A stretch of 35,784 bases of DNA. Origin: Mariprofundus sp. GTDB taxonomy: Bacteria; Pseudomonadota; Zetaproteobacteria; Mariprofundales; Mariprofundaceae. Below, piece by piece: positions 12,082 through 24,928 of this stretch. The position numbers and the translations under genes were made by a program. The stretch is taken from positions 1-35,784 of the forward strand of contig JAUZQK010000066.1 of NCBI GenBank assembly GCA_030951025.1. Direction: 5' to 3'. The notes under the pieces are model-generated. The model saw only the letters and a list, made by a program, of their open reading frames with translations. It was not told where the DNA came from and ran no database searches. The number at the start of each line of letters is the position of its first letter. Within the stretch, counting starts at the first letter, position 1.

Positions 12082-12311
12082 TGTTGTTTGTGGGTGCTGC
12101 TTTGGTCAGGGCTGTGTATGTCTGAGTTGGGTGCATTCGAGTTCTTTTTGTGCTGCTGATTGTTCGGGGCGATGTCATCATCATCGAGAATACGGTGGGC
12201 AGGACCTTCCATATCGTCATACTGGCCACTTTTCACAGCCCAGAAAAACACCAATACGCCGACCAGTCCGAGCACAATCATGCCCGGAATCAAACCATAA
12301 ATTACACTCAT
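12078..12311 (-). CDS. ccoS: cbb3-type oxidase assembly protein CcoS
   Basis: A 77-residue single-helix membrane protein. It begins MSVIYGLIPGMIVLGLVGVL and continues FFWAVKSGQYDDMEGPAHRI, then an acidic DDDD: the standard CcoS pattern of one helix followed by a gap-and-acidic motif. The C-terminal tail (about residues 50-77) is hydrophilic, rich in His, Asn and Ser, and longer than in many CcoS. CcoS is required to assemble active cbb3 oxidase with its cofactors. The ATG at 12311 has AGGAGA seven bases upstream; a longer open frame to 12389 is not supported by a ribosome binding site. It is cut off from ccoGHI by the oppositely oriented cytochrome gene, so it probably has its own promoter in 12312-12432. 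Confidence 0.92.
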   Translation of the reverse strand: MSVIYGLIPGMIVLGLVGVLVFFWAVKSGQYDDMEGPAHRILDDDDIAPNNQQHKKNSNAPNSDIHSPDQSSTHKQH

Positions 12312-12912: not shown

Positions 12913-15444
12913 CTATTTACCATTCATGTGTTTTTTGATCAGCATCGCATTGCCAATCACCAGCAATGAACTTACAGGCATGGCCAGAGCAGCAAACACA
13001 GGGGTAATCCATGCGGCCATGGCTATCGGCACAAGCATAAGATTGTAAGCCAACGACAGGCTTAAATTCTGGCGAATGGTTTTGAGGGCGCGCTGGCTCA
13101 AATCCATGGCCCAGGGGATGCGTTTCAAATCGCTACCCATCAATACAATATCGGAACATTCCATAGATACATCTGTGCCGCTACCCATGGCGATGCTGAT
13201 ATTGGCCTGTGCCAGTGCCGGCGCATCATTGATGCCATCGCCGACCATCAGCACATGCTCACCTTGCTGTTGCAGAGTTTTGATGTGATTGGCTTTATCG
13301 GCGGGCAAGACTTCGGCAATAACGTTGATATTTGAATCTGTGTGAGCCGATAAATATTGCTGCAAATGCCGGGCGGCAGCTATGGAGTCACCGCTGAGCA
13401 GGGTGATGCCGATGCCGCGTTGAGCCAGACTATTCATGAGCTCGCAGGCATCTTCTCTCAATTCATCTTCGATACGCAATAAAGCCAGCAGACTGCCATT
13501 GATTGCAATCAGTACAGGCACCGCCATGGCTGATTCGATGCTTTGGCATCTATCGATAATATTGTCTGCTAGCATGATATTACACTGTTGCATCAGACGC
13601 TGATTGCCGATCAGAAGTTGTTGCCCATCCACCTTGCCGGCAACGCCGAGGCCGGGCAGCAACTCGGGCTGCTGAGCTTCGATCAAGGGCAGCTCGGCTG
13701 CAGATGCACAAATGGCTTGAGCTAAGGGATGAGAAAAATGACGTTCCAATGCGGCTGCGAGTTGTAAGATATCATCGGGCGAGTGTTCGGTTTGATCGGT
13801 TTGGTCATTGTTACCGTTCCGAATGATATCACTGACGCGCATTTGGCCGGTGGTTAAGGTGCCCGTTTTATCAAATACGATATGGCTGGTATCGGACAGG
13901 TTTTCCAGTGCTTCACCGTGACGCACCAGTACACCGTGTTTGGCTGCAAGGCCGGTGCTGACAGCAACAGCCATGGGTGTGGCCAGGCCCAGCGCACAGG
14001 GGCAGGTGATAATCAGCACTGCGGTTGCGGCCAATAGGGCGGTATCAAAATCAGCCTGACCGTACCAATATAAAAAACTCAGACTGGCGAGTGAGAGAGT
14101 GATGGCCACAAACCAAGGCACAATGCGATCTGCCAGCCGTTGAATAGGTGCTTTTGAACCTTGAGCTGATTCGACCAGATGAATAATGCGCGATAATACA
14201 GTACTCGAACCCGTTTTTTCGACCGCCATGATGAGCGGACTTTCGGCATTGATGGTGCCGCCGGCAACGTGGCTGCCGACTTGTTTATGAACCGGTTTGG
14301 ATTCACCGCTCAACATGGATTCATCAATATGCGAATGGCCTTCAACAACCACACCATCAGCAGCGATTTTATCACCTGGCTTGATGCGCAGCAGATCCCC
14401 TGCTTGCAACTTACGCACAGCGATACGTTCATCACTGCCATCGTTATTGATGCGTGTGGCCATGCGCGGTTGTAATTCGAGCAGGCGGAGTGTCGCTGAA
14501 GAGGCATTGCGCCGTGCCATGGCCTCCAGATAACGACCAATCAGAATGATGAACAAAAAGCTGACCACGGTATCAAAATAGACATGCGAACCAGCTTGTA
14601 GGGTTTGCCAGAAAGAATAGCTGAATGTGGCCAAGGCACCGATGCTGATGGGTAAATCCATGTTCAATCTGCCTTGAGCTAAAGCACGGCCAGCAGAAAG
14701 CAGGATAGGGCCACCGGAATAAAGCAATACAGGTGTGGCAATGGCCGCACTGATCCAGTGAAAAAACTGACGGTATTCAGCACTCATGCCAGAAAATGCA
14801 CCGGCATAGAGGGCAATTGAAATCCACATGATATTCATGGCACCAAAAGCTGCGAAACCCAAACGAAATAACAGTTGTCGGTTTTGTTTTTGTAACACAC
14901 CATCAACGCTTTCGAGATTAAAGGGCACGGCGGCATAACCGAGTTTGGCCAGCCGTTCGATGATGGTGGCCAAGCCGATGTGATCAGGCTGCCATTGCAG
15001 CAGTAAGCGGTGATGCACCAGATTGACTTCAGCTTTGATGATGCCATCCATGCTGGCCAAGGCCTTTTCGATCAGCCAGACACAGGCCGCGCAATGAATA
15101 CCTTCAACCATGAAACGGGTTTGCATGGATCCATCGGCAAGCTTGCGGGTGAATTCCTGCTGTACTTCGTGTAAATCGTATTGATCGATATCGCTGGGTG
15201 GTTGTGGCGGAGGTGCGATGCTGCTTTGCCGTTTTTGCACACGCTCATAAAAACTATCCAGACCTGCACCGTGAATGACCTGACAAACACTTAAACAGCC
15301 CGAGCAGCAGAATAGCTGTACTTCACCCGCGATATCGCCTCGGCAGACACTGGAGCCAGAGGCTGGTAAATGGCAGTGAAAGCAGCTGCTGTTAGCGTTG
15401 TACAAAGATGCGCTGGGCGGTATCGAAGTGGTGTTCTCCGGCAT
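12913..15444 (-). CDS. ccoI: cbb3 copper-loading P1B-type ATPase CcoI/FixI
   Basis: An 843-residue copper-transporting P-type ATPase. The N-terminus has a cysteine-rich module (CFHCH at about 21-25, CCSGC at about 46-50) typical of CcoI, then an HMA domain with GIHCAACVW (about 115-123). The membrane part includes the transport motif CPC at about 481-483. Also present are the actuator loop MLSGESKP, the phosphorylation site DKTGTLTTG (about 525-533), HP in FSHPLAQA, and MVGDGINDAPALA. It exports Cu(I) for assembly of the CcoN heme-copper centre. I use the ATG at 15444, overlapping ccoH by 53 bases; a TTG at 15405 would shorten the overlap, and the frame stays open to 15552. No strong ribosome binding site is seen. 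Confidence 0.95.
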   Translation of the reverse strand: MPENTTSIPPSASLYNANSSCFHCHLPASGSSVCRGDIAGEVQLFCCSGCLSVCQVIHGAGLDSFYERVQKRQSSIAPPPQPPSDIDQYDLHEVQQEFTRKLADGSMQTRFMVEGIHCAACVWLIEKALASMDGIIKAEVNLVHHRLLLQWQPDHIGLATIIERLAKLGYAAVPFNLESVDGVLQKQNRQLLFRLGFAAFGAMNIMWISIALYAGAFSGMSAEYRQFFHWISAAIATPVLLYSGGPILLSAGRALAQGRLNMDLPISIGALATFSYSFWQTLQAGSHVYFDTVVSFLFIILIGRYLEAMARRNASSATLRLLELQPRMATRINNDGSDERIAVRKLQAGDLLRIKPGDKIAADGVVVEGHSHIDESMLSGESKPVHKQVGSHVAGGTINAESPLIMAVEKTGSSTVLSRIIHLVESAQGSKAPIQRLADRIVPWFVAITLSLASLSFLYWYGQADFDTALLAATAVLIITCPCALGLATPMAVAVSTGLAAKHGVLVRHGEALENLSDTSHIVFDKTGTLTTGQMRVSDIIRNGNNDQTDQTEHSPDDILQLAAALERHFSHPLAQAICASAAELPLIEAQQPELLPGLGVAGKVDGQQLLIGNQRLMQQCNIMLADNIIDRCQSIESAMAVPVLIAINGSLLALLRIEDELREDACELMNSLAQRGIGITLLSGDSIAAARHLQQYLSAHTDSNINVIAEVLPADKANHIKTLQQQGEHVLMVGDGINDAPALAQANISIAMGSGTDVSMECSDIVLMGSDLKRIPWAMDLSQRALKTIRQNLSLSLAYNLMLVPIAMAAWITPVFAALAMPVSSLLVIGNAMLIKKHMNGK

Positions 15445-15892
15445 CGATGCGGGCAAGCAAGTCCCAGTGACCGGGTAGCGGAAAGCTGATCGCAGCAGCG
15501 TATGTGCCTGCATCGGTGCGTGGCAAGACGATGGTAAAGTCCTGGCTGGCATCGTTGGGGCGATAGGCGCTTAGCAGCACCTGACCTGTGCGAATCGGCT
15601 GACCACTATGATCCATAACATACAGGCGCGAGGTGATGCTATCGTTGGCTTTGATGGTGTTGGGCAGCAACAGTTGCAAACGCCATGCTGTGGCTGCGGC
15701 TTGATCACGCAGTTGAGCATCATGGAAATAACTCTTACCACGCTCGTAATAATCCTGCACCACCAGATTGGGTGGGAAGATAAAAGCATAGCTAATAAAC
15801 GCGATATTGACGACCAAGGTTACGCCGACCACTGCGAGAATGCTTCTTAACCACGGGTTTTTCAGATCCATTTTGAGTTGTTCACTGAACAT
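15392..15892 (-). CDS. ccoH: FixH/CcoH family cbb3 assembly protein
   Basis: A 166-residue protein with one N-terminal transmembrane helix (about 16-39), preceded by NPWLRSI, then VVQDYYERGKSYFHDAQ, the conserved FixH segment. The periplasmic remainder is an Ig-like beta domain ending in LPGHWDLLARIDAGEHHF, also a family hallmark. CcoH is a single-span protein needed for stable cbb3 assembly and associates with the oxidase. ATG at 15892 lies 5 bases after the ccoG stop, and the ccoI start overlaps its 3' end. Tight spacing indicates one transcript with ccoG and ccoI. Confidence 0.92.
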   Translation of the reverse strand: MFSEQLKMDLKNPWLRSILAVVGVTLVVNIAFISYAFIFPPNLVVQDYYERGKSYFHDAQLRDQAAATAWRLQLLLPNTIKANDSITSRLYVMDHSGQPIRTGQVLLSAYRPNDASQDFTIVLPRTDAGTYAAAISFPLPGHWDLLARIDAGEHHFDTAQRIFVQR

Positions 15893-15897
15893 GATGT

Positions 15898-17313
15898 TTA
15901 CCTGCCTGGTCCGATAAACACGGATTTCTTTTTAAGCTTAATCTTATCGTTGGTGTTGTTGCTCTCAAGTATAAAAACAATTTTTGTTCTTGCCTGTTTC
16001 AGTTGATCAGGTTTGGCACGTAAATAAACATGGAAGGGGATGGTGCCTTTGGCTTCCAGTTTAATGCTATCGCCATCAGGTAATTTTATTTTCACAGCAT
16101 CAAGACCAGTAATGCGCAATTGAAACTCTAGTGTGTGCGGCGTTTTATTGACCGCTTTGATGGTATATTTGTTGAGTATGCTGCCATCGCTCATTTGGAT
16201 AAATAATGGTTGGCGTTCATGTATGACGGACAACTCAACTGGCGGAATATGGCTGAGGCCGTAAATGATGCCGCCCAGCGACAAGCATAAAACAATAGCG
16301 TAAGTGATCACCCGTGGTCGTTTGAATAGGGGGGGGAGGTCAATGCCCTGCATCTCTTTTTGTGAGGCATAACGAATCAGGCCACGAGGGCGATTGACTT
16401 TATCCATGATGCTATCGCAGGCATCGATACACAGGCCACAGGTGATGCAACCTTCGCTCAAGCCTTCGCGGATATCCACGCCGGTTGGGCAGACACCAAC
16501 ACATAAACGGCAATCGATGCAGTCACCGTGGCTGGCGCTGTCTTGAGCCCGCAATTTGCCTCGAGGCTCTCCGCGTGCCACATCATACGTGGGTAGCTCG
16601 GTGTCTTTATCAATCATCACACTCTGGATGCGGGCATAAGGGCAGAGCCAAAAACATACTTGTTCGCGCATGAAACCTGCGAATACATAGGTGCACAATA
16701 CAATCGTGCCCAGTGTTACCCAGGCAATCAGTGGCGCTTCGAGGCTGATATAGCTTTGCCACAAGGCATAGACATCGGCGAAATAAGCCGTAAAGGAGAA
16801 TGCGGTAAGCAATGAAATGACTAACCACAAGCTGTGTTTATAGGTTTTGAGTTTAACTTTGCGCATACTCCAGGCTGCTGCATCGAGTCGTCGACGTTGA
16901 ATGGGATTACCTTCGATTTTATCTTCTAACCAGGTGAACCAATCGGTCCAGACGCTTTGGAAACAGAAATAACCGCACCATACACGTCCTGCGATGGCGG
17001 TGACCGCGAATAGGGTGATGGCCAGCAAAATAAGAATCAGTGATAACATCCAGACATCCTGTGGCCAGATGGTCAAAGCCCACAAATGGAACTGGCGATG
17101 CGGAATATCGAATAGAATGGCTTGTTGCTCGTTCCAGCGAAAGAATGGCGTAATGAAAAATAAGATCCATAAGCTGGAGCCATACCAGCGATAGTTGCGG
17201 AAGCGACCGCCGATGCGCTTGGCATGGATGGTTTCATCACCGGCATTGACATGCCAGTGGCTGGCATCGGCGTAGAGGTCTTCTACATGGTGCTGTTGCT
17301 GTTGTTCTGACAT
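15898..17313 (-). CDS. ccoG: cbb3 assembly cupric reductase / ferredoxin CcoG (RdxA/FixG)
   Basis: A 471-residue membrane iron-sulfur protein. It has about five transmembrane helices, with paired cysteine motifs VWCGYFC (about 112-117) and CFWLCP (about 220-225). Two ferredoxin-like clusters follow: CIDCRLCVGVCPTG (about 265-278) and CITCGLCIDAC (about 289-299). After a last helix (about 336-354), residues 360-471 form an Ig-like C-terminal domain. Members reduce Cu(II) to Cu(I) for delivery to the oxidase through CcoI. ATG 17313 is preceded by AAGGAG at ideal spacing, indicating independent initiation after the terminator at 17355-17387. It heads the ccoGHI transcript. Confidence 0.95.
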   Translation of the reverse strand: MSEQQQQHHVEDLYADASHWHVNAGDETIHAKRIGGRFRNYRWYGSSLWILFFITPFFRWNEQQAILFDIPHRQFHLWALTIWPQDVWMLSLILILLAITLFAVTAIAGRVWCGYFCFQSVWTDWFTWLEDKIEGNPIQRRRLDAAAWSMRKVKLKTYKHSLWLVISLLTAFSFTAYFADVYALWQSYISLEAPLIAWVTLGTIVLCTYVFAGFMREQVCFWLCPYARIQSVMIDKDTELPTYDVARGEPRGKLRAQDSASHGDCIDCRLCVGVCPTGVDIREGLSEGCITCGLCIDACDSIMDKVNRPRGLIRYASQKEMQGIDLPPLFKRPRVITYAIVLCLSLGGIIYGLSHIPPVELSVIHERQPLFIQMSDGSILNKYTIKAVNKTPHTLEFQLRITGLDAVKIKLPDGDSIKLEAKGTIPFHVYLRAKPDQLKQARTKIVFILESNNTNDKIKLKKKSVFIGPGR

Positions 17314-17354: not shown

Positions 17355-17387
17355 CCAAAGAAAAGGGAGGCTCTTAATGAACCTCCC
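17355..17387 (-). terminator. Terminator between the cco structural and assembly genes
   Basis: Read on the minus strand, GGGAGGTTC, loop ATTAA and GAGCCTCCC form a 9-bp stem (one G-T pair) at 17387-17365, followed by TTTTCTTTGG. It lies directly after the 37-codon small gene. It should end or attenuate transcription from ccoNOQP before ccoG. Confidence 0.75.
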
Positions 17388-17408
17388 CTCCTTTTAAATG
17401 TATTGTGT

Positions 17409-17522
17409 TTATTCGGAATCTTTCTTGCCACCAATGATTTTGAAAAAGTGGTAAGCCAGATAAGCGCCGACAAGTACTGTGCCGCTCACTGCCAGAATAA
17501 CTCCGATGACTACTTCATCCAT
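17409..17522 (-). CDS. Small single-helix membrane protein after ccoP, CcoM-like candidate
   Basis: A 37-codon gene, too short for standard calling. It starts at ATG 17522 with AAGGGGAT about seven bases upstream and stops at TAA 17409. The protein begins MDEVVIGVILAVSGTVLVGA, forms one transmembrane helix (about 4-27) and ends in a positively charged, then acidic tail (KIIGGKKDSE). It begins 19 bases after the ccoP stop in the same direction and is followed at once by the terminator at 17355-17387, so it is the last gene of the ccoNOQP transcript. Pseudomonas stutzeri cbb3 oxidase contains a similar-sized single-helix subunit, CcoM. I infer an analogous role from size, topology and position, not from residue identity. 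Confidence 0.75.
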   Translation of the reverse strand: MDEVVIGVILAVSGTVLVGAYLAYHFFKIIGGKKDSE

Positions 17523-17541
17523 ATCTATCCCCTTGTAAGGC

Positions 17542-18411
17542 TTATTTACCGCCGCCGAATTGATGTACTTTTACGGCCAGCATTTTAATCGCTTCCGGAC
17601 TGAGTTTTTCACCAAAAGCAGGCATAATGGCGATGCGTGTCTTGGGCACATCGGCCGGATCTTCATTTACACCATAACGAATGGTGCGCAAAATATCTTC
17701 GCGAGAGCCACCGAAACGCCAGATGCCATCGGTTAAATTGGCTGCGCCGCTGCCGAGATCGTTGATGACACCGCCCTTGGCATCTTCACCATGGCAGCCT
17801 GAACAACCATTTTCATCGAAACGAATAAAACCTTGTTTGCTTGCTTTGCCCTGTGCTGCAGCCAGTACAAAATCAGCCATCTGGTTGATTTGCGCATCCT
17901 CGATCATGCCTTCATGGGCTGGCATAGAGCCTTCGCGACCATCAGTGATACTTTCAACGATGGTGTCGAAATCACCGCCAAACAGCCAGTCATCATCGGC
18001 CAGATTGGGGAACAGGCCTGCTGCCCCCTGGCCACCAGCACCATGACAGGCTGCACAGTTGTCACCGAAGAGTGCTTTGGCCGAGGATTCGGCAAAGTTG
18101 CGCATGGCAGGGTCTGCCATCAGGGCTTGCCCATCCATATCCGCCACCTTTTTAAGATAGGGTGCTTTAATGGCATCGTTTTCAGCCACAGCCTCTTTGA
18201 ACTCTTTGATTTGGGTCCAGCCCAATAGTCCTTTGGTGGAGCCATGCAATAAAGGAATGGAAGGGTAGAGAACCAGATACACAAGGCAAAATATCCAACT
18301 GGCATGAAGCGAGATCATCCACCAACGTGGTGGTGGGTTGGTTAATTCGCGAATCCCATCCCATTCATGCCCTGTATCGGCAACCTGTGGTGCTTTATCT
18401 TTTTTGGCCAT
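17542..18411 (-). CDS. ccoP: cbb3-type cytochrome c oxidase subunit III (diheme cytochrome c) CcoP
   Basis: A 289-residue membrane-anchored diheme cytochrome. A short cytoplasmic N-terminus with HEWDGIRELTNPPPRWW, diagnostic of CcoP, leads into one helix (about 31-50). Two cytochrome c domains follow with heme motifs CAACH (119-123) and CSGCH (203-207). Likely Met ligands are in GSMPAHEG (Met163) and AIMPAFG (Met263). It passes electrons from soluble carriers to CcoO. The start at 18411 overlaps the ccoQ stop by 17 bases, implying translational coupling. The length is normal for the family. Confidence 0.95.
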   Translation of the reverse strand: MAKKDKAPQVADTGHEWDGIRELTNPPPRWWMISLHASWIFCLVYLVLYPSIPLLHGSTKGLLGWTQIKEFKEAVAENDAIKAPYLKKVADMDGQALMADPAMRNFAESSAKALFGDNCAACHGAGGQGAAGLFPNLADDDWLFGGDFDTIVESITDGREGSMPAHEGMIEDAQINQMADFVLAAAQGKASKQGFIRFDENGCSGCHGEDAKGGVINDLGSGAANLTDGIWRFGGSREDILRTIRYGVNEDPADVPKTRIAIMPAFGEKLSPEAIKMLAVKVHQFGGGK

Positions 18412-18673
18412 GAGCAGCCTCCCTGTTCATATCCGCATCGTTTTTATATTTAGCATGATCGTCATTGGCATGATCTTCATTCGCATGCAGTTCAGCATCT
18501 TCATTTACAAAATCACGATGCTGTTCAAAGTGATCGCGATTGGATGGTTTGAATATCCAGCTGTAGAGGCCGATCATCAGTACTGTGAGCACAACCACGA
18601 TGATCAGGCCACTCCAATCTGCATGTGTCATGGCTTCCCAGTCGGTAGCAAAGAATTCACGCAGACTATTCAC
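18395..18673 (-). CDS. ccoQ: cbb3-type oxidase small subunit CcoQ/FixQ
   Basis: A 92-residue single-helix protein. I set the start at the GTG at 18673, which overlaps the ccoO stop by 8 bases and has AAGGG upstream; the open frame extends to 18805, but that would lie wholly inside ccoO. The helix is about residues 20-40 ([20 protein letters not shown]). The helix is followed by FKPSNRDHF and a long tail rich in Asp, His, Glu and Asn ([16 protein letters not shown]). CcoQ stabilises the CcoP-CcoNO association. The His/Asp-rich tail is longer than in many CcoQ and could bind metal (inference). Confidence 0.88.
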
Positions 18674-19325
18674 GATAATCTTTGCCCTTTTCGAAATTGA
18701 CCATGGTGCCGAGCACTTGCAAATAAGCGATGATGGCATCCATTTCTGTTTTACCATGTACTGCCGCCGCTGCACCAGCGAAATCTGCTTCGCTGTAAGG
18801 TACACCGACCATGGCGAGGGCGCGTAATTTCTTCTCGGTCAGGCTGTCATCAATAATATGATCCTCGAAGAAGGCGTAGTTAGGCATGACCGATTCAGGC
18901 ACGAGCGAACGCGGTGCGCGCATATGCTGGCGTTGCCAGGCATTGGAGTATTTGCCACCCACACGCGCCAGATCAGGGCCGGTACGCTTGGAGCCCCACT
19001 GGAACGGATGATCATATTTCGATTCAGCGGCCAGTGAATAGTGGCCATAACGTTCTTTCTCATCACGGAATGGACGAATCATCTGTGAATGGCAGAGATA
19101 GCAGCCTTCACGGATATACACATCACGGCCTTCCTGCTCCAGAGCGGTGTAGGGACGAATGCTGTCTTCTTCCTTGCTCAGCTTCTCAATGGTGTTATCC
19201 AGATAATACAGCGGCACGATTTCCACGATACCACCGATGGACACCACAATGGCGACCATGATGATCAATCCCAGAATGTTTTGTTCCATCTTTTCTTGGA
19301 ATGATTTTTTCTTTTTCACTTCCAT
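18666..19325 (-). CDS. ccoO: cbb3-type oxidase subunit II (monoheme cytochrome c) CcoO
   Basis: A 219-residue membrane-anchored cytochrome c. One N-terminal helix (about 17-40, [20 protein letters not shown]) is followed by a periplasmic domain with heme motif CYLCH (75-79) in the diagnostic context [20 protein letters not shown], then [20 protein letters not shown] and a Met ligand in PESVMPNY (about 147). The ATG at 19325 has GGAGG at ideal spacing and lies 9 bases after the ccoN stop. It relays electrons from CcoP to the heme b of CcoN. Confidence 0.96.
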
Positions 19326-19334
19326 GCTCGCCTC

Positions 19335-20756
19335 CTATGCCCGTGCCGCAGCAGTTGCAGACTGGCTGCCAGCTTTTTTGATGGTCAGGACCACATTGTA
19401 CAACATGATCAATGCACCAAGCAGTACAAGCAGACCACCGACAGAGCGCAATACATAATAAGGATGCATGGCCACAACGGTTTCAGCAAAGCTGTAGACC
19501 AGATTGCCGTAGTCATCGGTAGCGCGCCACATCAAGCCTTGCATAATGCCGGATACCCACATGGCACAAATGTAAATGACCGTACCAATGGTATGAATCC
19601 AGAAGTGTGTATTGACCATAGATACCGAGTGAATGTCGGTTTTCCATAAGCGTGGCACCAGATGATAAATCGCACCAACCGAGACCATGGCGACCCAACC
19701 CAAAGCACCGGAATGCACATGGCCAATGGTCCAGTCGGTATAATGCGACAGAGCATTGACGGTTTTGAGCGACATCACCGGCCCTTCAAAGGTGGACATG
19801 GCGTAGAAGGCGAGTGAGACAACCATGAAGCGCAGTACATAATCGTCACGCAATTTGTCCCATGCACCGGATAAGGTCATCAAGCCATTAATTGCACCAC
19901 CCCAGGATGGAATGATCATGGCAATCGACACCGCTGCTCCCAAAGAACCAGCCCAGTCAGGCAGAGCAGTATATTGCAGATGATGGGCACCAAGCCAGAC
20001 ATAACCAAACATCAGAGCCCAGAAGTGCAACACAGATAAACGATAGGAGTAGATTGGCAAATCAGCTTGTTTGGGAATGAAGTAATACATAATACCGAGG
20101 AAGCCGGCCGTTAAGAAGAAGCCCACCGCATTATGACCCCACCACCATTGAATCATGGCATCGTGTACGCCGGAGTAGATGGAATAGGAATGGGTCAAGG
20201 TGACGGGAATGGCCAATGAATTCACCACATGTAGATAAGTGATCATGATCATCATGCCGAGGAAGAACCAGTTGGCCACATAAATATGAGACACTTTTCT
20301 GTTCACGATCGTCATGATGAAATTGAACATATAAGAGACCCAGACGACGGCGATCAGGATATCAACCGGCCATTCCAGTTCGGCATATTCTTTGCCTTGT
20401 GTCCAACCCATGGGGAAAGAAATGACCGCTGCGACAATGACCAGGTTCCAGCCCCAGAAGGTGAACCAGGCCATTTTGTTGCTCCACAGGGGAACTGCAC
20501 AGGTGCGTTGAACGATATAAAAGGCTGTTGCCATCAGCGTGCAACCACCGAAGGCGAAGATCACGGCATTGGTGTGTAAGGGGCGCAAACGGCCAAAACT
20601 CAGATACTCATTAAAGTTGAGCGAAGGAAAGGATAATTGCCATGCAATGAGATCGCCAACCAGGGCTCCGACAACCAGATAAACCACTGCACAGACTGCA
20701 AATGCCTTGACGATTGCCATATTGTAATTGGGGTTTTCCGGGGCTTTTTCAACCAC
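19335..20756 (-). CDS. ccoN: cbb3-type cytochrome c oxidase catalytic subunit I CcoN
   Basis: The heme-copper catalytic subunit, 473 residues from the GTG at 20756. About twelve helices carry the expected ligands: [19 protein letters not shown] (low-spin heme His), [11 protein letters not shown] and WLGAHHLQY (CuB His residues), and [14 protein letters not shown] (heme His pair). It reduces O2 to water at low oxygen and pumps protons. The frame opens earlier at ATG 20786, but that codon has no ribosome binding site, whereas GTG 20756 is preceded by GAGGAGG at eight bases. The ATG start would simply encode that sequence as Glu-Glu codons. It is the first gene of ccoNOQP plus the small gene, divergent from nnrS. 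Confidence 0.95.
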
Positions 20757-20830
20757 AGTCTCCACCTCCTCGTGTTTAAAATGCATGCCGGATACTATTT
20801 ATACGGCTATAGTTGTACATATTTTTTTTG

Positions 20831-20920: not shown

Positions 20921-22138
20921 ATGCATACAAATGTAGAACACACACCTTCGATGAGTGTCGGAGGTGTTTTATTTAGCTCAGGCTTTCGGATATTTTTTAT
21001 AGCGGCCACAGTGTTTGCAATCTTGAGCATGCTGATCTGGATGGGGCAGCTGGTTTTTTCGTTGGCATTGCTGCCTGAGCATTTATCTGCTTCATCGTGG
21101 CATGCTCACGAAATGATTTATGGTTACGGTCTGGCTGTAATAGCCGGCTTTTTGCTTACCGCAGTCAGAAACTGGACAGGTATTCCAACCTTGCATGGGA
21201 CTCCGTTACAAGCCTTGGTGTTGTTATGGGTGGTAGCAAGGCTAGCTCCGTTTGTGCCGCTTTCATTGCTGCCGGTTGAACAGGCTATGTTGCTTGGAGC
21301 GGTGTGTGACGGGTTGTTTATCATTGCATTGTCAATCGCATTAACCGTACCGGTGGTGCAGGCGCGGTTATGGAAAAATATGGGCGTGGTTAGCAAACTG
21401 TATTTTTTCCTGCCGGGTCATGTGTTATATAGTTTGGATCAATTCGGCCTGTTTGCGGATGGTCGACGCATTGGTTTGTATATTGGTTTGTACATGATTT
21501 TATCGTTGTTGTTGCTGTTGTCGCGGCGGGTGATTCCGATGTTTATTCAGCGTGGTATTGGTGGAGACATTATATTGCGCAATGATTTCCGTGTCGATAT
21601 GGCTTGTTTTTTGGTGTTTCTGATGTTTGCCATCAGTGATATCTTTTTTGTAGCGCCAGTCTTGACTGCGTGGCTGGCGGGGGGGCTGGCCGTGTTGCAT
21701 GCGGTGCGCTTGAGTGGTTGGTACCATAGAGGTCTGTGGCAGAAGCCGTTATTGTGGGTGTTGTATCTGGCTTATGGGTGGATGGTGATTGGTTTCGCCT
21801 TGAAGTGGGCGGTGTTGCTGTTTGGTGTTTCACCTTTTCTGGCCACCCACGCTTTTGCTGTTGGTGGTATCGGTATGATGACGCTTGGCATGATGGCGCG
21901 TATCTCTCTGGGGCATACTGGCCGCAATATTATGCAGCCGCCAGCAGGTCTGGGCTGGATGTGTGCGTTGTTTATGTCAGCTGTATTCGTGCGAGTGCTG
22001 TTGCCGCTCGTATTTATAAACAATGATGTGGTTCTGATGGCTGTTTCACAGGTATTATGGATCGTGTCCTTCATGTTGTTTTTATATCATTATATTTTAA
22101 TGTTGCTGCAGCCGCGCATTGATGGGAAACCGGGCTGA
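20921..22138 (+). CDS. nnrS: NnrS family heme/copper membrane protein
   Basis: A 405-residue protein with about twelve hydrophobic helices. Family features include LFSSGFRIFFIAATVFAIL near the start, WHAHEMIYGYGLAVIAGFL (the conserved W-H-A-H-E metal/heme segment), TAVRNWTG, RRVIPMFIQRG, and HAFAVGGIGMMTLGMMARISLGHTGR. NnrS proteins contain heme and copper and protect cells from nitric oxide or related nitrosative stress. ATG 20921 is preceded by AAAAGGA. It is divergent from the cbb3 operon, a respiratory context that fits denitrifying or NO-exposed metabolism; no NO reductase or nitrite reductase gene is in the window. Confidence 0.93.
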   Translation: MHTNVEHTPSMSVGGVLFSSGFRIFFIAATVFAILSMLIWMGQLVFSLALLPEHLSASSWHAHEMIYGYGLAVIAGFLLTAVRNWTGIPTLHGTPLQALVLLWVVARLAPFVPLSLLPVEQAMLLGAVCDGLFIIALSIALTVPVVQARLWKNMGVVSKLYFFLPGHVLYSLDQFGLFADGRRIGLYIGLYMILSLLLLLSRRVIPMFIQRGIGGDIILRNDFRVDMACFLVFLMFAISDIFFVAPVLTAWLAGGLAVLHAVRLSGWYHRGLWQKPLLWVLYLAYGWMVIGFALKWAVLLFGVSPFLATHAFAVGGIGMMTLGMMARISLGHTGRNIMQPPAGLGWMCALFMSAVFVRVLLPLVFINNDVVLMAVSQVLWIVSFMLFLYHYILMLLQPRIDGKPG

Positions 22139-22258
22139 TGCTGAAAGTATTGTTGATCGAGGCCGACTCCTGAGCCAATTGGCCTGCATCATGCTAAGCA
22201 GGTTAGCTTGGCGTTTTGCATCTGCGGAGCGCTGAGCAAAGGAGTATTGTGCCGCGAT

Positions 22259-22948
22259 ATGATCAGCTTCATTAAACAATGTGTGTTTCTGTTAATGCTA
22301 TTGTCTGTCTCTGTTGGCATAGCAGGGAAATTCGGCTTTTCGCCGGAGTTTTTGCAAGAGATCGCCGCGCAGTTCGGCTATAGAGCGCAGGATCGTGTGG
22401 TAGCATGGCAAGAGTTGATTGAAAAAAATCAGGCTGGTGATGATTATCAGAAGATATTTGCGGTGAATCGCTTCTTTAATAAAGTACGTTTTATTTCGGA
22501 TAAAAAACATTGGGCTCGTAATGACTATTGGGCAACACCAGTGGAATTTTTATCTACCAATGGTGGTGATTGTGAAGACTTTTCGATTGCCAAGTATTTC
22601 ACCTTACGCGAACTCGGTGTGCCGGATGAAAAGCTACGCATTACCTATGTAAAAGCCTTGAGGCTGAATCAGGCGCATATGGTGTTGGCATATTACCCGA
22701 CATCGCAAAGTGATCCCTTGATTCTGGATAATCTGATCAAAAAAATTCGCCGAGCTTCAACACGTAATGATTTGTTGCCGGTTTACAGTTTTAATGGTAA
22801 AGACTTGTGGGTAGCAAAAGAAAGAGGCCAGGGGCGCAAGCTCGCAGGTGGATCGCAACGTATCGATTTGTGGCGTGATTTGAATGTGCGTATGAAAAAA
22901 GAACGCAATCTTGGTTTAAGTTATACCATAGAGAGCATGATAAAATGA
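22259..22948 (+). CDS. lapG: LapG-like periplasmic transglutaminase-like cysteine protease
   Basis: A 229-residue exported protease of the bacterial transglutaminase-like family. A signal peptide spans about residues 1-22. The catalytic triad is visible: Cys105 in GGDCEDFSIAKYF, His140 in NQAHMVLAYYP and Asp157 in LILDNL. Asp104 and Glu106 flanking the Cys match the calcium-binding residues of LapG. LapG cleaves the N-terminus of large LapA-type adhesins and releases biofilm cells when LapD does not hold it. The ATG at 22259 begins directly at the signal peptide; an AAGGAG lies 14-18 bases upstream, so a nearby alternative start is possible. It precedes lapD by 51 bases. Confidence 0.93.
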   Translation: MISFIKQCVFLLMLLSVSVGIAGKFGFSPEFLQEIAAQFGYRAQDRVVAWQELIEKNQAGDDYQKIFAVNRFFNKVRFISDKKHWARNDYWATPVEFLSTNGGDCEDFSIAKYFTLRELGVPDEKLRITYVKALRLNQAHMVLAYYPTSQSDPLILDNLIKKIRRASTRNDLLPVYSFNGKDLWVAKERGQGRKLAGGSQRIDLWRDLNVRMKKERNLGLSYTIESMIK

Positions 22949-22999: not shown

Positions 23000-24928
23000 A
23001 TGACCTTATCTCGCCAGTTAATTAGCTTAATCTTTGTGACATTTGTGCTTATTTTTTCAGGCACATTCTGGATCAGTGTAGAAAACACACGTTCTTATTT
23101 GATGCTGCAGTTGGCCACACAGACTCAAAGTGCAGCCGATGCGCTGGGTTTATCGCTGGTGCCGTATATGCAAAACAAAGATATTGCGGCCATGGATACC
23201 ATGGTCAATGCGATGTTCGACAGCGGTTATTATAAATCGCTGAAGCTGAGTAATATGTCTGGAGAGACGTTGATTGAGCGTGAAAACACATCACAGCAGG
23301 AAGCTGTGCCACAATGGTTTATTGAGCAGCTTTCGCTGCTGACACCAACGGCTGATTCAATTATTACCACCGGCTGGACTCAAGCTGGCCGTTTGCAGCT
23401 TAGTGCGCATCCAGGTTTCGCATACCAAAAACTGTGGCAGACCAGTGTTGATATGCTGCAATGGTCATTGTTGGCTTTTATTCTTTCGCTGCTGGCTGTA
23501 CTGCTAATTCTCAGAGCTATTCTCAGGCCTTTGGATGCAGTGGAGCAGCAAGCCTTGGCGATCAGTCAACGTGAATTTCCTGTGCTTGAGGATATTCCAC
23601 GTACACGTGAGTTGAAACGGGTGGTGCTGGCGATGAACAAGATGTCAGCCAAGGTGGAAGGATTTATCAGCAAATTGACGCAGCGGGCGGAACTCCTGCG
23701 CCAGGAAGCGCACTACGATGCGTTGACCGGTCTGGTTAATCGGCGTGCTTTTTTGGCGCAGCTGAACAATATTATCAAGGATCATGAAAAGGGGGGATCG
23801 GGTGCTTTAGCGGTGGTGCGTATGAGTGGTTTTGCCGATTATAATCAGCAGCATGGTCATCAGGCCGGTGATGATTTGCTGGTTGAAGTGGGCAAGGCAT
23901 TGAATGAAATAAGTGATCAATATCCGGCCTCCACCACGGCCAGAATAAGCGGCACTGATTTTGCAATTATTTTACCCTTGGCGGACGCTGATATTGCTGA
24001 TGAATTTGGGCTTTTATTCTCGGCCAAACTCGATGCTCTGGCGGATCGTTTGAAACTGGATGCAATTGCGCAAATTGGCATTGCCTGTTTTGATCATGAC
24101 AAACAAATCGGTCATGTGCTGGCTGATGCGGATACTGGCTTATCGTTGGCTGAACAGGCCGGTGTGAATACTTACGCATTGCAGAATAAAAGCAGTGAAG
24201 TTGGCGGTAATCAGCAATGGCAGGCATTGATTGAAGATGCGATTCAAGATGGACGCATTCGTTTGCAATCTCAACCGGTGCTGGGCACAGGGCGTGAGGG
24301 TATGTACAGCGAGGTGTTGATTCGCATGAAAGGTGATGATGGTAAATATATATCACCGGGTGCATTCACATCAATGGCGGAACGGCTCGGTCTGAATGGC
24401 GAACTCGATCGTCATGTGATTGAGCGTGTGGTTCAGCTGCTCAAAGTCGATTCGGCGATGCCGTTGGCGGTAAATATCGCAGCATCTTCAATGCGGGATG
24501 AGGTCTTGCTGAGATGGCTGGATAAGTATTTTGCCGAGCATGGCGATGTGGCGTGTAAGATGTATTTTGAAGTGACTGAACATGCGTTATTACAAGATGA
24601 TGAGGCGGCCAATGACTTTATTACGCTGGTGCATAAACATGGTGGTAAAGTGGTCATGGAGCATTTTGGGACACGACTGAGTTCATTCCAGAGTCTGCGT
24701 CAGTTAAAATTGGATTATATCAAGATTGATGGCAGTTATACCCGTCACATCGCTGAACACAGTGATAATCAATTCTTTTTGCAAACAGTCACCGATATCG
24801 CCCATGGCTTGGACATTCAGGTGATTGCTGAACATGTAGAATCAGAGGCTGATTTTAATGGCCTGCAAGGCATCGGAATCAATGCTATGCAGGGGTATTA
24901 TCTGGGTGAACCACAGCCGTTGGACTAG
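23000..24928 (+). CDS. lapD: LapD-like c-di-GMP receptor with degenerate GGDEF and EAL domains
   Basis: A 642-residue inner-membrane protein: helix 1 (about 5-26), periplasmic LapD/MoxY-N domain (27-150, including the YYKSLKLSNMSGETL segment), helix 2 (153-172), HAMP (173-225), GGDEF (about 235-395) and EAL (405-642). Both output domains are degenerate. The GGDEF site reads SGTDF (317-321). The EAL signature is EVLIR (438-442) and the DDFG loop is MEHFG (553-557). This is the LapD pattern: c-di-GMP binding to the EAL domain makes the periplasmic domain sequester LapG and so preserves the adhesin. Adjacent lapG strongly supports the call. A moderate GAGGATGG ribosome binding site precedes ATG 23000. 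Confidence 0.95.
   Translation: MTLSRQLISLIFVTFVLIFSGTFWISVENTRSYLMLQLATQTQSAADALGLSLVPYMQNKDIAAMDTMVNAMFDSGYYKSLKLSNMSGETLIERENTSQQEAVPQWFIEQLSLLTPTADSIITTGWTQAGRLQLSAHPGFAYQKLWQTSVDMLQWSLLAFILSLLAVLLILRAILRPLDAVEQQALAISQREFPVLEDIPRTRELKRVVLAMNKMSAKVEGFISKLTQRAELLRQEAHYDALTGLVNRRAFLAQLNNIIKDHEKGGSGALAVVRMSGFADYNQQHGHQAGDDLLVEVGKALNEISDQYPASTTARISGTDFAIILPLADADIADEFGLLFSAKLDALADRLKLDAIAQIGIACFDHDKQIGHVLADADTGLSLAEQAGVNTYALQNKSSEVGGNQQWQALIEDAIQDGRIRLQSQPVLGTGREGMYSEVLIRMKGDDGKYISPGAFTSMAERLGLNGELDRHVIERVVQLLKVDSAMPLAVNIAASSMRDEVLLRWLDKYFAEHGDVACKMYFEVTEHALLQDDEAANDFITLVHKHGGKVVMEHFGTRLSSFQSLRQLKLDYIKIDGSYTRHIAEHSDNQFFLQTVTDIAHGLDIQVIAEHVESEADFNGLQGIGINAMQGYYLGEPQPLD

Follow-up and report, generated by a model that had tools for sequence, protein, structure and literature searches.

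Microaerobic life, which includes marine iron oxidisers and many symbionts, has the cbb3 enzymes as its high-affinity oxidases. In the 35,784-nucleotide stretch of Mariprofundus sp. DNA analysed here (the window), a ccoNOQP operon for such an oxidase lies on the minus strand, and ccoP is followed by a 37-codon open reading frame (ORF), referred to below as the fifth gene. The features of the locus are listed along the direction of the operon:

20921-22138, plus strand: NnrS gene, diverging from ccoN (Pfam)
19335-20786, minus strand: ccoN (COX1; Pfam COX1)
18666-19325, minus strand: ccoO (FixO; Pfam FixO)
18395-18664, minus strand: ccoQ-like gene in the usual place, start near 18631-18664 (weak Pfam FixQ match)
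17542-18411, minus strand: ccoP (FixP; Pfam FixP_N, Cytochrome_CBB3)
17523-17541, minus strand: gap between the ccoP stop and the fifth-gene ATG, holding AAGGGG (sequence)
17409-17522, minus strand: fifth gene, for a 37-residue protein with a single helix, proposed to be a CcoM-like subunit of the cbb3 oxidase (ORF, conservation, AlphaFold2)
17360-17392, minus strand: intrinsic terminator (AGGAGGGGAGGTTC-ATTAA-GAGCCTCCCTTTTCTTT), beginning 16 nt past the ORF stop (fold z -5.3; relatives)
15898-17313, minus strand: ccoG (FixG/RdxA), next transcription unit past the terminator (Pfam FixG_C)
15392-15892, minus strand: ccoH (FixH; Pfam FixH)
12913-15552, minus strand: ccoI, copper P-type ATPase (Pfam); the gene likely begins downstream of 15552
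12177-12308, minus strand: ccoS (FixS)

The plus strand also carries a LapG-like gene (BTLCP cysteine protease, 22208-22948) and a LapD-like gene (LapD_MoxY_N, GGDEF and EAL domains, 23000-24928); located near the oxidase operon, the two may form a c-di-GMP pair for adhesin release. A scan of the window for FNR boxes returned no more than expected by chance and none ahead of ccoN.

The fifth gene, read from 17522 to 17409, starts with ATG, ends with TAA and encodes the 37-residue product MDEVVIGVILAVSGTVLVGAYLAYHFFKIIGGKKDSE. Exactly 19 nt (17523-17541) separate its start codon from the ccoP stop, and AAGGGG within this gap provides the ribosome-binding site, just as the sequence-only reading of this DNA had described. 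The strong terminator it had pointed out after the ORF is also borne out: the hairpin and T-run 3' of the stop codon fold with -23.7 kcal/mol (z = -5.3), and 0/200 shuffled sequences were as good. A terminator stands behind the fifth gene in 23 of the 27 related loci tested, against a background of 5%, and this conservation implies that the fifth gene closes the ccoNOQP unit and that ccoG starts another.

The existence of such an ORF means little by itself because chance ORFs of 25-40 residues are common, and many appear in the ORF list of the window. The fifth gene could accordingly be imagined as a chance ORF or an untranslated leader of the terminator/ccoG region, a reading on which the relatives bear directly. 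The sequence-only reading had suggested a tblastn search for conservation of frame and position, and both are conserved. In relatives the search placed the fifth gene between ccoP and ccoG, and when the scan was anchored on ccoP the ORF turned up in every family member with the same ccoP type. Among 78 Zetaproteobacteria genomes, 26 gave strong profile matches (E 1e-14 or better; next best 0.007) and the remaining 52 gave none. The same type of ccoP occurs in 25 zetaproteobacterial genomes, all 25 of which carry the fifth gene after ccoP; in the 26th genome with a strong match, the ORF lies 147 nt from a contig end. The copies in Mariprofundus erugo and M. micogutta are identical to those of the genus-level relatives of the window. 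More distant ccoP loci (L038-L049) have no such ORF behind ccoP.

The relatives share the reading frame, a length of 34-39 residues, an MD[AES]V start, the ribosome-binding site and the spacing. Third codon positions are the most variable, with the highest entropy, and the codon comparison gave a pN/pS of 0.34 with pN below pS in 66/66 pairs, by which measure the fifth gene is under purifying selection. On this comparison we reject a chance ORF, a reading that also fails to account for the conserved frame, start, ribosome-binding site and place, and to which we attach practically no weight. The ORF stands above chance because relatives conserve its frame, start and length as well as its position, ribosome-binding site and terminator. 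The fifth gene claimed at the end of ccoNOQP is genuine: it is the last gene of the unit and encodes a single-span protein.

The sequence-only reading had further supposed that the gene may be specific to its lineage, which did not hold. We used ccoP relatives from named genomes as anchors for loci outside the Zetaproteobacteria, and an ab initio filter (a single hydrophobic ORF with a ribosome-binding site, at most 250 nt from the ccoP stop) recovered the family in Methylophaga, Sedimenticola, Thiodiazotropha, Chromatiales, Sideroxydans and one Nitrospinota metagenome-assembled genome (MAG). With a broad profile, the family was found in 67 of the 78 loci with enough downstream sequence. Since this profile included the filtered sequences, the search was repeated with a profile built from Zetaproteobacteria only. 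At E<=0.01, the best match in 50 non-zetaproteobacterial loci (14,762 candidate ORFs) lay 0-400 nt after ccoP in 49; in the exception, L088, the match overlaps the end of the aligned ccoP region. By this zetaproteobacteria-only profile, the gene follows ccoP also in Gammaproteobacteria, Betaproteobacteria and a Nitrospinota MAG. In a 398-genome sample of the phylum, only one genome from another class matched strongly (G363, E 5e-10), and there too the match lay between ccoP and ccoG. Judging from these searches, the family is not universal, and it was found only together with a cbb3 oxidase, linked to ccoP in 25/25 genomes within the class and adjoining it elsewhere, apart from the one contig-edge case. 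Two of the loci, from a MAG labelled Spirochaetia (L087) and a Gammaproteobacteria MAG (L086), have a ccoP that shares 63-71% identity with that of the Zetaproteobacteria, which reflects either transfer or mis-binned contigs.

As the sequence-only reading had stated for the 37-residue product, one transmembrane helix is predicted: AlphaFold2 modelled a single helix over residues 3-34 with a mean pLDDT of 88.6. Acidic residues precede the helix and lysine or arginine residues follow it. None of 40/40 sequences has a lysine or arginine before the helix, and the mean number after it is 2.8. By the positive-inside rule, this charge pattern implies an outside N-terminus and an inside C-terminus, which is the topology we expect for the fifth-gene product. 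A single helix of about 36 residues with the charge pattern of CcoM is accordingly what the fifth-gene family presents.

In the literature, CcoM figures as a subunit of certain Pseudomonas oxidases. The sequence-only reading proposed that the fifth gene encodes a CcoM-like oxidase subunit that differs from Pseudomonas CcoM. At the level of single sequences the difference is real. Scans with Pfam and NCBIfam found no model for the family and only chance transmembrane matches. The zetaproteobacterial members did not match the NCBIfam CcoM model NF041600, and the best member of the wider family reached 12.3 bits of its 40-bit cut-off; the fifth gene is not CcoM as NCBI defines NF041600. A PDB profile search with the family profile did not match the CcoM chain 5djq_N, and its hits to KdpF and a glycine transporter (E 0.08-0.5) were judged to be chance.

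The comparison of family profiles gave a different picture. We built a CcoM family alignment from genome matches, the CcoM reference sequence agreeing with 5djq_N over 35 residues. CcoM also occurs outside Pseudomonas, in two further families of proteobacteria (f35 and f28; L166, L167, L168, L171-L173), and those of their proteins that were scanned scored above the NF041600 cut-off. In hhalign, the fifth-gene and CcoM families aligned over 38 ungapped columns with a score of 31 and a probability of 92%, and shuffled CcoM alignments were as good in 1/300 and 0/300 trials. Against the fifth-gene family, 36 real transmembrane windows of cco proteins scored at most 15.6, CcoS 11.7, TatA 14.9 and unrelated single-helix controls 12-15, the controls as a whole spanning 10-16. 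The score of CcoQ, 23.7, was above that of the other controls, and part of the CcoM signal could therefore reflect a general oxidase-helix character. Testing the fifth-gene profile against CcoM alone gave 7.5 bits with 1047/20,000 shuffles as good, a weak one-sided test that is not significant. Taken as family profiles, which align ungapped and well above controls, the two are probably divergent relatives, and the claimed difference applies to single sequences, which fail NF041600. We regard homology of the fifth-gene family to CcoM as likely, although not proven, and its product probably works like CcoM.

A second zetaproteobacterial type of cbb3 oxidase (L193-L205) has a divergent ccoP and a divergently oriented ccoG. 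The fifth-gene ORF is absent after its ccoP. The small protein after its ccoP scored 11.8 and is unrelated to the fifth gene; the conserved ORF there has two helices and about 62 residues (MNLTTLKA...IDSIFGI.WPNY...) and lies at the following places:

L194:5969-6151 (oriented): two-helix ORF
L195:6348-6536: two-helix ORF
L197:5456-5644: two-helix ORF
L198:5583-5774: two-helix ORF

Just before or overlapping ccoN, the second type carries a conserved single-helix ORF of 59-65 residues (e.g., L193:2092-2277), which has a D-P-V-V-F motif like that of CcoM and the fifth gene and a profile score of 39-45 against the fifth-gene family.

DUF3149 (PF11346), a Pfam family without known function, gave a profile score of 35-42 against the fifth-gene family. 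At the curated cut-off of PF11346 neither the zetaproteobacterial members nor the members of the wider family that were scanned matched; only the proteins of L191 and L192 did. Within the 398-genome sample, FixO was present in 37 of the 38 DUF3149-positive genomes (base rate 294/398), a co-occurrence that is a lead and is inflated by shared species ancestry; the lone positive genome without FixO had a weak match in a 349-residue frame, which leaves FixO in 37 of 37 credible cases. DUF3149 was unlinked to cco genes in 29 of 30 loci (L206-L235), the other, L226, having a ccoG-like match, and a literature search found no paper mentioning it. From the profile comparisons, DUF3149 is a possible unrecognised cbb3 helix. 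Both DUF3149 and the ORF before ccoN look related to the fifth gene, and the extra helix may be widespread.

The intermediate score of CcoQ raises the question of whether the fifth gene is a duplicated and diverged ccoQ, which would supply a second CcoQ helix without the soluble tail. That score lies above those of unrelated controls, and one member of the CcoM family matches FixQ at E=1e-4. Against a duplicate, the ccoQ-like gene, which encodes a single-helix subunit distinct from the fifth-gene product, still lies between ccoO and ccoP, whereas the fifth gene lies after ccoP; none of the fifth-gene family members scanned with Pfam matches FixQ (PF05545), and CcoM, DUF3149 and the ORF before ccoN all outscore CcoQ. 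We consider this origin highly improbable.

More thought is due to an assembly or maturation factor of the cbb3 oxidase, non-stoichiometric like CcoH/CcoS or the CcoX of Campylobacter. The fifth gene has the structural genes on one side and the ccoGHIS maturation genes on the other, and a precedent exists in Campylobacter jejuni, where CcoX and CcoY, small single-transmembrane proteins encoded just after ccoP, are required for full oxidase activity, their loss abolishing or lowering it (PMC8267372). The conserved terminator, however, groups the fifth gene with the structural genes and not with ccoGHIS, its profile resembles CcoM and not CcoS, and in a Pfam comparison the family had no match to DUF4006 (CcoX). 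On balance, we judge an assembly factor to be unlikely.

The CcoM-like oxidase subunit suggested by the sequence-only reading remains the best explanation as a prediction, the family profiles aligning with CcoM well above controls. We think it likely that the fifth gene encodes a divergent, operon-encoded, CcoM-like accessory subunit of the cbb3 oxidase that supports its assembly or stability. The gene would have a ribosome-binding site of its own on the ccoNOQP mRNA and be translated from there, and the sequence signals, conserved as they are, suggest that the operon ends at the terminator past it. Charge and structure prediction would place the short acidic N-terminus of the one transmembrane helix in the periplasm and the tail, lysine or arginine first and then acidic, in the cytoplasm. 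On the precedents of CcoM and of C. jejuni CcoX and CcoY, we infer that the non-catalytic helix may pack against the membrane part of CcoN/CcoP and, like CcoM in Pseudomonas stutzeri, help the oxidase to assemble or to remain stable.

Tentatively, and without leaning towards it, we raise the possibility that an extra helix is general in many cbb3 oxidases and belongs to one diverged family that comprises the fifth gene, the ORF before ccoN, the unlinked CcoM of Pseudomonas and its allied families, and, in other families of proteobacteria, DUF3149. The fifth gene adds a small-gene family missing from Pfam and NCBIfam. If an operon-encoded relative of CcoM does occur in several classes, the extra helix would be a common part of cbb3 oxidases, DUF3149 would gain a testable role, and these proteins would form a natural series in which to study the role of small helices in heme-copper oxidases.

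Among known systems, CydX is a small subunit with a single span whose gene closes the operon of cytochrome bd oxidase; it belongs to a different oxidase, and the likeness is one of principle only. CcoQ/FixQ (PF05545) is likewise a single-helix subunit of the cbb3 oxidase, with a weaker profile similarity. CcoX (DUF4006) and CcoY of C. jejuni share with the fifth-gene product the small size, the single transmembrane segment and the place directly downstream of ccoP. DUF3149 consists of a single helix of about 45 residues and resembles both CcoM and the fifth gene in the profile comparison. CcoM itself, known from Pseudomonas stutzeri and P. aeruginosa (NF041600; PDB 5djq chain N), is a single-transmembrane subunit needed for stability but not for activity (PMC8267372), with a length of 36 residues (PMC10433244). 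No cco gene lies within 1.5 kb of the CcoM genes, whereas the fifth gene is inside the ccoNOQP operon, and its product ends in an acidic tail where that of CcoM is basic. Both are single helices of about 36 residues that share the M-x(0-2)-D-x-V-V start, an acidic residue before the helix and lysine or arginine after it.
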